Below, in pieces: positions 5,463-44,944 of a stretch of 64,000 nt of DNA. Position numbers and translations under genes: made by a program. A model generated the notes under the pieces. It did no database searches, was not told the DNA's origin, and worked only from the letters and a program-made list of their open reading frames with translations. Origin of the DNA: an uncultured Opitutaceae bacterium (GTDB lineage: Bacteria > Verrucomicrobiota > Verrucomicrobiia > Opitutales > Opitutaceae). The DNA lies in assembly GCA_903890485.1 (NCBI GenBank), contig CAITBM010000008.1, positions 1 through 64,000 of the forward strand, written 5' to 3'. Within the stretch, counting starts at the first letter, position 1. Every line of letters begins with the position of its first letter.

Positions 5463-5491
5463 GGAGGGGACTCTAGGAGGGAAAGATGAAG

Positions 5492-5589
5492 TGGCCAGGC
5501 ACTCCACGGCACTGGTAGAACGTCGGTACCGTTGCTGCCTTCCGGCCCTGGCGGGGTTCGCGCGTCTGCCCATGCATGGCGCCTGGCCG
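5492..5589 (-). ncRNA. ffs: Signal recognition particle RNA (small bacterial type)
   Basis: On the minus strand the segment runs from GGCCAGGC to GCCTGGCC, which pair perfectly as the closing helix. Between them lies the SRP domain IV signature CCAGGGCCGGAAGGCAGCAA with the GGAA tetraloop that binds Ffh. The length of about 97 bases fits the short eubacterial 4.5S form. It sits directly upstream of dnaX on the same strand, an arrangement common in bacteria, so the two may share transcription. Confidence 0.95.
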
Positions 5590-42253: not shown

Positions 42254-43198
42254 TCAGACCAATCCCACCACAGAGCGAGCGATTTGATAGAGGTAGCCGC
42301 AGGACCGCCACGTCCTGACGAAGGCCCGCTTGGCGTTGTCACCCTGGAGCGTGAGCAAGCATGCGACGGTGGTGAGGGAGAAGCCCGCGAGCTTGAGCAT
42401 CGCGCCAAAGGCCCGCGACGAAAGGTACCCGTAAGGGGACTGGTTTGAGGCGCGGAGCGTGCGGACCCGGTCCACAACCCTGGAGCGCGCGGAGTCGAAT
42501 GCGTGGCGGAGCGCATAGCCCATGGTGAGGCGGCTTGCCGGGATCTGGTGGAGCACCTTGGCCCCGGGGACAAACCAGGCATCGAGCCCGACCGCCCGGA
42601 TCCTGCGGATCATCTCACTGTCCCCGCCCCCGAAGAGCTTCCCACCCTTCCTGTCGAGGCTCGTGTCAAAGGATCCAAAGCGGGCAAAAACCCACTTTGG
42701 GAAGGCAAAGTTGGCGCCCATCGGGACCTGGTCCGGGGGAAGGGGACCGGGATCCATCCGGAAGCCGAGCGGCCTGTGGGATCCCTCAAGCCACCGCGGG
42801 ATGCCGTCCGGAAAGACCGGCACGACCTCCCCGCCGACCACACCGATCGAGTGCGCCCGGTCCGAAGAGAATGGGGCGACCATCTGCTCAAGCCAGGTGG
42901 GCTCCATCAGGATGTCGTCGTCCACCAGAACCACGATATCACCCTGCGACTCCTCGATTGCCCGGTTGCGCCCGTGATCCAGGCCCTGGCGCATCTCAAG
43001 CACGTGCCGGGGCGCAGGCGATGAGGCCATGAAGGAGGAGACCACGTCGCGCGTGTCGTCCTTCGAGTTGTTGTCGATCACCAGGAGTTCCCAAAGCTCG
43101 TGCGGGTAGGTCTGGCGCACGAGCCCCGCCAGGGTCTCGCGCAGGAACCGGGAACGATTGAAAGTGATGACGGCGACCGTGATCCGCAGGAGGGGCAT
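42254..43198 (-). CDS. Glycosyltransferase family 2
   Basis: 314 residues. The GT2 start is RITVAVITFNRSRFLRETL, then LVIDNNSKDDTRDV and GDIVVLVDDDILMEPTW (the DDD metal site, near residue 95). GANFAFPKWVFARFGSFD and GGGDSEMIRRIRA (near 210) are the acceptor side with the ED-like motif. A hydrophobic segment near 280 (FSLTTVACLLTL) suggests membrane association. First gene of the pair with the WaaE-like enzyme, 20 bases apart. Exact sugar and acceptor unknown; surface polysaccharide is likely. Confidence 0.9.
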   Translation of the reverse strand: MPLLRITVAVITFNRSRFLRETLAGLVRQTYPHELWELLVIDNNSKDDTRDVVSSFMASSPAPRHVLEMRQGLDHGRNRAIEESQGDIVVLVDDDILMEPTWLEQMVAPFSSDRAHSIGVVGGEVVPVFPDGIPRWLEGSHRPLGFRMDPGPLPPDQVPMGANFAFPKWVFARFGSFDTSLDRKGGKLFGGGDSEMIRRIRAVGLDAWFVPGAKVLHQIPASRLTMGYALRHAFDSARSRVVDRVRTLRASNQSPYGYLSSRAFGAMLKLAGFSLTTVACLLTLQGDNAKRAFVRTWRSCGYLYQIARSVVGLV

Positions 43199-43299
43199 CT
43201 ATTCGAATGGGCTAGCGAGTATAATTTGCTTCTGATAACCAACGAGTTGCAATAAACCAAGCTCTATTGCGAAAAAAACTCTGGACGGATGCCCCCGAA

Positions 43300-43480
43300 A
43301 TTTCATGATTCGCGACGCATCAGGAACGAATCGGCCCTAAAAAGCTGGTTCTGCCAACCGGGCCGGGAGCGGCCACGGTGGATCGGGCGAAAGCCCGGAT
43401 GTGCGGAGCTCAAAAGGCCCCGAACCGAAACGCTCCCGAAAGCGACAGCCGACCTGATGCCCAGGTCGGCTTTTTGTTTT
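43300..43480 (+). ncRNA. Structured RNA with intrinsic terminator (leader or sRNA)
   Basis: The 325-base gap before the small arm-domain gene holds four consecutive helices. GATTCG/CGAATC pair at 43307-43332. A long nested hairpin runs 43347-43426: GGTTC/GAACC, GGGCC/GGCCC, GAGC/GCTC, then CGGGC-GAAA-GCCCG capped by a GNRA tetraloop. CGCT/AGCG pair at 43431-43444, and a terminator follows. GGTT at 43347 can instead pair with AACC at 43356, giving alternative folds. It matches no RNA family I recognise. The 5' end and promoter are not certain; 43199-43299 holds nothing I can assign. Confidence 0.55.
43448..43480 (+). terminator. Strong intrinsic terminator
   Basis: GCCGACCT (43448-43455) and AGGTCGGC (43463-43470) form a perfect eight-pair stem with a seven-base loop, followed by TTTTTGTTTT. 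It lies 44 bases before the next ATG, so it ends the structured RNA or works as an attenuator for the following gene. Confidence 0.88.
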
Positions 43481-43523
43481 CAGCCCTGTTGCGCGATTAA
43501 ATCCACAAAGATCATCACGCACC

Positions 43524-43748
43524 ATGACAAACCTAGAAGAACAGCCCGGTATCCGCATCACGGCCGACAACCCGAACCACCACCTGTGGAACAACCACGG
43601 AACCTGGTTCCTGCACTACACGATCCACCCCACCCCGTTCACCAAGGAACGCATCCGACGTTCCCTGGGAACCAAGGACCTGGCGACCGCCCAGGCAAGG
43701 AGGGACGCCTTCTTCGCGGCGTTCCTGAGGAAGCAGGTCGCGGCCTAG
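43524..43748 (+). CDS. Small protein resembling a tyrosine-recombinase arm-binding domain
   Basis: 74 residues. WFLHYTIHPTPFTKERIRRSLGTKD followed by ATAQARRDAFFAAF (abridged) fits the three-strand-plus-helix arm DNA-binding domain of phage-type integrases: a WxxxY strand, a basic R-R-SLGT turn, then a helix with AxxRR. No core-binding or catalytic domain follows. The ATG is 44 bases after a terminator, and the stop shares CTAG with hemW. It may be a stand-alone DNA-binding regulator, an excisionase-like protein or a remnant; the intact small frame argues against simple decay. Confidence 0.6.
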   Translation: MTNLEEQPGIRITADNPNHHLWNNHGTWFLHYTIHPTPFTKERIRRSLGTKDLATAQARRDAFFAAFLRKQVAA

Positions 43749-44944
43749 GCCGTCGCCGCAGCCTCGGGGGCCCGAAACGCGGACATGACCTCCATGCCGA
43801 CCGAGTCGGCCAGGAGCCGGCCCCGTCGTTCCAGCCGCACTCGCGACCCGTAGCGGGTGGCGAGACCCTCCGAAACGAGCCGCTCCACAAGGGCCGATAC
43901 CCGTTGCCAGGGGGCCAACGGGCACCTTTCGCGGAGCTTTTCCAGGTCGACGCCCTCATTCATCCTCAGCCCGAAGACCAACGAATCCTCGACCAATAGG
44001 GACGGCGTCAGGAGGGTGCGGTCCTCGGTCGACCTCTCACCCCGCTCGACCTGGGCCGTCCATTCCTCGAGGTTTGCGATGTTCGAGGATCTCCAACCGC
44101 CGTGCTGCGAGGCGCCGGAGGGTCCCAGGCCCACCCACTGGGCCATCCTCCAGGTGTTCACATTGTGGAGGCATTGGTGGCCGGGGCGCGCGAAGTTGGA
44201 GACCTCGTACTGGTCGTAGCCAGCCGCGCCAAGGCGGTCCCAGGTTCGCTCGTACATCCGGGCCTCGTTTTCGGGATCAAGCCTGACGCGGCCCTGGGAG
44301 AGTTTCACCCAGAGTGCCGTGTCCTCCTCGAAGGTGAGGCAGTAGGTCGAGATGTGGTCGGGCCTTAAAGCCAGGGCCTCGTCGATGTCGCTCTCCCACT
44401 CCTCGGCAGTCTGCCCCGGCAGGGCGAACATAAGGTCGATGTTCACGCTTGGAAACCCGGCTTCCCTCAGCCGGTCATAAGCGCGGTAGACCTGCTCGCG
44501 GGTGTGGGCCCGGCCGAGCGCGTCGAGAAGGGCGGGCCTGAAACTTTGTACCCCCATCGACACCCGGGTGACGCCGGCCGAGCGCAGAGCCGAGAGCCTC
44601 TCGCGGGTTACCGACGCCGGTGCCAACTCCACGCTCCACTCCTGCGGCGACTCCCCTCCCAGAAGCCCGTGGACGACCTCCGCGACCCGACCGAGGTCAG
44701 CCGGCGACAGGAGCCCCGGTGTGCCACCGCCGAAGAACACGGTCTTGATCGGCCGGTCCCAGGTGACGAGCCGGGCCTCGTCGCCGAGGGATTTGATGAA
44801 ACCCTGAACCGATTTGGCGGTCGGACTGACTTGGTAAAACGCACAGAAGTCGCAAGTACTGGCACAGAAGGGCACGTGGACGTAAAGGCCCAGCGGGCCC
44901 GGGTCCTCACCTTTGGCTTGCTCCCCTATGGCGACACCCCTCAT
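43745..44944 (-). CDS. hemW: HemW-like radical SAM protein
   Basis: 399 residues from ATG 44944. The cluster motif is YVHVPFCASTCDFCAFYQ (CxxxCxFC plus the extra Cys pattern of the HemN/HemW family). Then VFFGGGTPGLLSPADL, RVSMGVQSFRPALLDALGR and NIDLMFALPGQTAEEW. HemW is a heme-binding relative of coproporphyrinogen oxidase HemN, thought to insert heme. The N-terminal region lacks HemN-specific residues. ATG 44953 is an alternative start. The gene starts only 13 bases from the divergent lipoprotein gene. Confidence 0.88.
   Translation of the reverse strand: MRGVAIGEQAKGEDPGPLGLYVHVPFCASTCDFCAFYQVSPTAKSVQGFIKSLGDEARLVTWDRPIKTVFFGGGTPGLLSPADLGRVAEVVHGLLGGESPQEWSVELAPASVTRERLSALRSAGVTRVSMGVQSFRPALLDALGRAHTREQVYRAYDRLREAGFPSVNIDLMFALPGQTAEEWESDIDEALALRPDHISTYCLTFEEDTALWVKLSQGRVRLDPENEARMYERTWDRLGAAGYDQYEVSNFARPGHQCLHNVNTWRMAQWVGLGPSGASQHGGWRSSNIANLEEWTAQVERGERSTEDRTLLTPSLLVEDSLVFGLRMNEGVDLEKLRERCPLAPWQRVSALVERLVSEGLATRYGSRVRLERRGRLLADSVGMEVMSAFRAPEAAATA

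Follow-up and report, generated by a model that had tools for sequence, protein, structure and literature searches.

The leader at positions 43300–43523 of the window (the whole 64,000-nucleotide stretch of Opitutaceae DNA that was analysed) lies directly upstream of a small gene, and the following features were recognized in and around it.

43281–43309, forward strand: probable promoter, with a −35 element CTGGAC (43281–43286), a 17-base spacer and a −10-like element CATGAT (43304–43309).
43316–43321, forward strand: 5′ strand of helix P1, pairing with 43398–43403 (98.9 % of cells paired).
43317–43324, forward strand: switch strand a, GCAUCAGG, comprising P1 5′ strand and J1/2; invariant in 29 Opitutaceae-type leaders.
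43328–43351, forward strand: P2 hairpin (43328–43335 with 43344–43351), with two-sided changes in seven of eight pairs.
43354–43381, forward strand: P3 and the SAM-pocket segments CCAACC (43354–43359) and GGUGG (43377–43381); invariant core, 99.3 % paired.
43365–43370, forward strand: 5′ strand of the pseudoknot, P3 loop GGGAGC (94.2 % of cells paired with 43432–43437).
43384–43397, forward strand: P4 hairpin with a GAAA loop (two-sided changes in two of five pairs; 89 % of cells paired).
43398–43403, forward strand: 3′ strand of P1, GAUGUG, of which GAUG is invariant.
43404–43422, forward strand: P5 hairpin, with basal pairs 96.6 % paired and a variable outer part.
43432–43437, forward strand: 3′ strand of the pseudoknot, GCUCCC, with complementary versions in divergent relatives.
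43447–43480, forward strand: intrinsic terminator, a 10 bp stem followed by TTTTTGTTTT (88.6 % paired, six double-change pairs).
43453–43460, forward strand: antiterminator partner a′, CCUGAUGC, in the 5′ arm and loop of the terminator; complement of GCAUCAGG.
43485–43493, forward strand: second partner a″, CCUGUUGCG, with 8–9 of nine letters kept in 29 of 29 relatives.
43487–43524, forward strand: start-codon hairpin (43487–43497 with 43514–43524), the last base being the A of the ATG.
43524–43748, forward strand: small gene of 74 codons, DUF6538-like, the predicted target of the riboswitch, downstream of the RNA in all alignable relatives.

Window positions equal 43310 plus the index in the first row of our alignment A1, where P1 occupies 6–11/88–93, P2 18–25/34–41, P3 47–54/61–69 together with 44–45/70–71, P4 74–78/83–87, P5 94–112 and the pseudoknot 55–60/122–127.

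The sequence-only reading of this stretch described a structured RNA, and its landmarks are all present: GGTT at 43347–43350, AACC at 43356–43359, GAACC at 43422–43426 and a GAAA-capped stem at 43384–43397. The folding energy of the leader is −80.4 kcal/mol, as against −64.1 ± 4.2 kcal/mol in shuffled sequences (z = −3.9), and none of 200 shuffled leaders was as stable. The strong terminator is likewise as described, the stem at 43447–43471 being followed by the run T5GT4, with the ATG at 43524 starting 43 bases on; it is the strongest of three terminator-like sites in 42800–44200, a region in which the minus-strand matches of the terminator scan were weak. The switch proposed there, in which GGTT would pair alternately with AACC or GAACC, can be formed on paper, but the conserved structure differs. 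We rejected GGTT as a switch strand, as it lies in the 3′ strand of P2, a helix that covaries; AACC is a universally conserved SAM-pocket/P3 segment and GAACC a conserved linker ahead of the pseudoknot strand. Two pairings absent from that reading are the complementarity of the P3 loop GGGAGC with GCUCCC and that of GCATCAGG (43317–43324) with CCTGATGC (43453–43460).

An Rfam scan of the window at gathering level gave no match at the leader, whereas a permissive scan of 43150–43560 returned SAM-I-IV (RF01725) at 43312–43438, over the full-length model, with 36.1 bits (E = 2.7e-4). The gathering score of RF01725 is 41.1 bits, and the standard scan misses the element because it falls just short of this cut-off. 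Close homologues of the element score 38–39 bits with RF01725, and small-gene leaders from other families 41.6–44.9 bits. The class that the sequence-only reading did not recognize is thus most probably that of the SAM-I/IV riboswitches, and the match to a known family that it had named as speaking against a novel class was found, albeit below gathering level. A bacterial small SRP RNA (RF00169, 62.1 bits) was also noted in the window, at 5490–5588 on the reverse strand.

The architecture of the element agrees with published descriptions of SAM-I/IV, in which P2 is undivided, P4 is present, PK-1 is absent and the pocket is common to SAM-I and SAM-IV (PMC6890682), and in which the variant has no internal loop in P2 (PMC2864571). 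P2 consists of eight contiguous pairs with neither internal loop nor kink-turn, P4 is found at 43384–43397, the P3 loop forms a pseudoknot with the 3′ tail beyond P5, and PK-1 is absent on inspection, the P2 loop varying freely in the alignment. With RF01725 ('SAM-I-IV-variant') the element therefore shares P1, the uninterrupted P2, the P3 pocket segments, P4, P5, the pseudoknot and the pocket bases, and sister copies have methionine-gene neighbours; it differs in its score below the Rfam cut-off, in a J1/2 of AGGAA, in having an uncharacterized small gene as target, and in a single switch strand common to terminator and start-codon hairpin. Membership of SAM-I (RF00162), whose pocket core and P1 to P4 order it shares, was rejected: the P2 kink-turn is missing, the P3-loop/3′-tail pseudoknot is absent from SAM-I, and RF00162 had no match in the window leader or in 57 relatives. 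SAM-IV (RF00634) resembles the element in ligand-pocket core, P5 and the pseudoknot PK-2 of P3 loop with 3′ tail, but has P2a/P2b and PK-1 and no P4 (PMC6890682); with P2 a single helix and P4 present, this assignment was rejected also.

The covariance check against related genomes that had been suggested for this RNA bears the structure out, as the helices covary in 29 aligned relatives. Standard pairs occupy 93.2 % of cells of the 50-pair structure in the 29 sequences, two-sided changes occur in 21 pairs compared with a shuffled mean of 11.3 (none of 500 shuffles being as high), and sliding the partners by 1–3 columns lowers pairing to at most 43 %. Divergent relatives (L026–L029) keep the pseudoknot as GGGAGU/ACUCCC and GAGGAGU/ACUCCUC.

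The pocket was compared with that of a SAM-I sequence. The list of SAM-I residues within 5 Å of SAM was taken from PMC6890682, with the numbering mapped by our own alignment. Equivalents of nt 6–8, 11–12, 44–47, 57–58 and 87 match SAM-I and do not vary among the 29 sequences; the sole difference within the list is nt 59, where C is replaced by G, and its paired nt 43 changes from G to C. Because all pocket bases are intact, the ligand is most likely S-adenosylmethionine. J1/2 reads AGGAA in place of AAGAG, and we attribute this unusual sequence to covariation of base 43323 with its switch partner rather than to a new ligand.

The switch strand GCAUCAGG has three possible partners, namely the other strand of P1, CCUGAUGC in the terminator, and CCUGNUGCG (43485–43493), a second copy of a′ that is otherwise paired over the start codon. 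Partner a′ keeps 7–8 of its eight letters in 28 of 29 relatives, and among 80 leaders one or both of a′ and a″ were found, usually with all eight pairs. At base 43323 the window's family has G, the metK-type leaders L101, L102, L103 and L105 have A, L111 has U, and L114 and L117 have C; the base facing it (43454) is correspondingly C, U, A and G. Of nine leaders in which the switch base is changed, two (L104, L106) lack a clean partner. Folding energies, which are secondary-structure estimates without pseudoknot or ligand, favour a forced antiterminator over a forced P1 in five of five loci, by 3.8–8.4 kcal/mol, when the transcript ends just past a′ (window, −65.7 versus −57.4 kcal/mol), whereas P1 plus terminator wins by 4–13 kcal/mol once the U-tract is included (window, −77.6 versus −70.2 kcal/mol). 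Off switches under kinetic control are usually built in this way, and such control may be inferred here. The riboswitch-type attenuator envisaged by the sequence-only reading is thus borne out, in that a known aptamer, a terminator and a covarying antiterminator partner precede the gene; conservation, covariation and energies together point to a transcription attenuator in which the terminator and an antiterminator using the P1 strand would be mutually exclusive. The evidence for a translational layer is weaker than that for the terminator: the start-codon hairpin is paired in 79.6 % of cells and has two-sided changes in four pairs, and in the window, as in many relatives, one base of a″ does not match the switch strand. 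In relatives lacking the terminator (e.g. L107, CTCCTGATGCGTAATT...AATTACGCATCCATG) the switch strand appears to work on the start-codon hairpin alone.

A consensus promoter scan found no sigma-70 match at the leader, and from the putative promoter listed above the transcript would begin with P1, whose first base is at about 43316. In 48 of 80 leaders the motif CT[GC]GAC precedes the switch strand by 36–38 bases. A further motif, TATGACA, is present in 31 of the 80 leaders (e.g. L010, L132, L137 and L109) compared with 0.34 expected, at no more than 110 bases and mostly 52–71 bases ahead of the switch strand, and is absent from the window's genus; it is possibly an activator site.

Of 95 genomes covered by a DNA search, 31 have the element, and a covariance model, R1, built from 29 of the element-bearing genomes, was positive in 98 of 200 genomes of the family and in 26 of 49 genera. 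Named records of the small gene are from Opitutaceae, including Opitutus, Cephaloticoccus, Candidatus Didemnitutus and many MAGs, and leaders followed by the small gene, with the terminator/start-hairpin layout, were also found in other families (L132, L135, L137, L139, L161 and L167). In six genomes (G021, G038, G127, G013, G119 and G191; leaders L101, L102, L105, L106, L114 and L115, the last more divergent) the order is leader, small gene, metK, the last coding for a SAM-synthesizing enzyme, and at these loci the small gene stop overlaps or touches the metK start; G021 and G013 carry an additional, separate metK elsewhere. The metK loci of the window genome and of relatives without the operon gave no R1 or Rfam match. 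Other SAM-I-IV matches in the phylum sit upstream of genes which we take, from recognized sequence motifs, to be metY-like, metK and homocysteine methyltransferase genes.

The genome of the window holds a second, weak SAM-I/IV-like element (L040:1501–1612; G000:C40:15925–16036; 34.7 bits with RF01725 and 24.6 bits with R1), upstream of an uncharacterized 226-residue ORF. It has a P3-loop CCACGG facing a tail CCGTGG, together with GGUGGUCCAAUGAUGUG, and seemingly no P4. The small-gene leaders L115, L116 and L172 have a common core around GGTGGTCC(A)ATGATG, apparently also without P4, and are possibly another sub-type of the SAM clan.

We consider it highly probable that 43316–43480 is a SAM-I/IV riboswitch with SAM as its ligand, which would turn off the small gene at 43524 by termination, backed by start-codon masking. 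The class architecture, covariation, pocket conservation, partner exchange and gene association were computed directly, and from them we infer SAM binding, the off direction and the use of both layers. The aptamer would consist of P1 to P5 and the pseudoknot of the P3 loop with the 3′ tail. When SAM is low, GCAUCAGG would leave P1 and pair with CCUGAUGC, so that the terminator is blocked and the gene transcribed; when SAM is high, P1 would be kept closed and GCAUCAGG occupied, so that the terminator forms and transcription stops. In read-through RNA, GCAUCAGG could pair with CCUGNUGCG, which would otherwise pair over the start codon, a probable second, translational layer.

A SAM-family aptamer with changed ligand, controlling the small gene through another metabolite, would account for the altered J1/2, the sub-threshold Rfam score and a target that is not a classical methionine gene, and has a documented precedent in the spermidine riboswitches, SAM-I variants that show that the SAM fold can switch ligand (PMC10853860). 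We consider it unlikely. The pocket bases are altered in those variants (PMC10853860) but conserved here, and nt 10 of J1/2 is not among the residues listed within 5 Å of SAM and changes in step with its switch partner. Sister copies upstream of metK and metY-like genes also argue against a new ligand.

It might be supposed instead that the terminated RNA of about 165 nt is mainly a trans-acting small RNA, with the downstream gene incidental; the strong terminator does stop the RNA before the gene, and trans-acting SAM riboswitches are known from Listeria. The same small gene nevertheless lies downstream in 29 of 29 aligned relatives, and in other families of the phylum, and the conserved antiterminator partner and start-codon hairpin make sense for control in cis, which renders this reading very unlikely, and the independent sRNA offered by the sequence-only reading unlikely. 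Least probable of all is autoregulation by the small protein, acting at RNA or at repeated GCATCA/TGATGC DNA sites with no metabolite involved: GCATCA or its near complement does occur four times in the leader, and the protein resembles, below threshold, the DNA-binding arm domain of integrases, but the RNA switch explains the repeats, the bases of the SAM pocket have been kept, related aptamers stand before metK and metY-like genes where there is no small gene, and one genus of the same class has the protein but not the RNA.

The small gene is real, as judged from substitutions of 178/105/548 at codon positions 1/2/3 (44-codon core), from conservation of the protein and from its occurrence in 64 of 289 genomes of the phylum. 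The window protein matches DUF6538 (Pfam PF20172) with 22.6 bits, below the gathering cut-off of 27; such sub-threshold matches were seen in 29 of 29 members, and Arm-DNA-bind_3 in four. Two AlphaFold runs gave pLDDT values of 61.5 and 71.7, the latter model comprising a beta-hairpin and two helices, features that, with the weak match, liken the protein to these families; unlike them, it stands alone at 70–100 residues without a recombinase domain. PDB fold searches with the predicted models returned chance matches only, and a PDB sequence search with the protein found no match. Binding of DNA or RNA by the protein can only be guessed at, given its weak likeness to integrase arms. More broadly, we tentatively suggest that it may be an unrecognized factor in SAM metabolism, either regulator or partner, that is produced under SAM shortage. 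It could be an integrase arm domain that has been domesticated and binds DNA, RNA or MetK, and its riboswitch would set termination and start-codon access through a single strand that has three partners.

The small protein is also found across a heavily sampled genus of this class with genomes of 2–3 Mb, conceivably Akkermansia, and the loci read there (among them L173 and L174) have no recognizable SAM leader. Some genomes hold three or four paralogues, several without riboswitch (G051; L118, L119 and L120), of which L119 is preceded by another leader that carries a terminator-like hairpin of its own. A 75 % identical copy on a contig of an Anaerolineales MAG (L263, JADZEK010000080.1) is probably a binning error.

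Our literature search found no paper on SAM riboswitches in Opitutaceae or Verrucomicrobia and none on DUF6538; the riboswitch class is known, and this literature gave no description of its members in Opitutaceae, of the expression platform with its shared strand or of the small gene as target. An RNA first read as an unknown structured element is now placed in a known sensor class, with a reason for its being missed by standard scans, and roughly one in two of the Opitutaceae genomes sampled can now be annotated for it. For evidence drawn from sequence alone, the covariation of a switch-strand base through all four letters supports an expression platform unusually clearly. Finally, a conserved small protein is tied to SAM supply by the upstream riboswitch, by the metK operon in some relatives and by the same layout in other families, so that its role can be put to a direct test.
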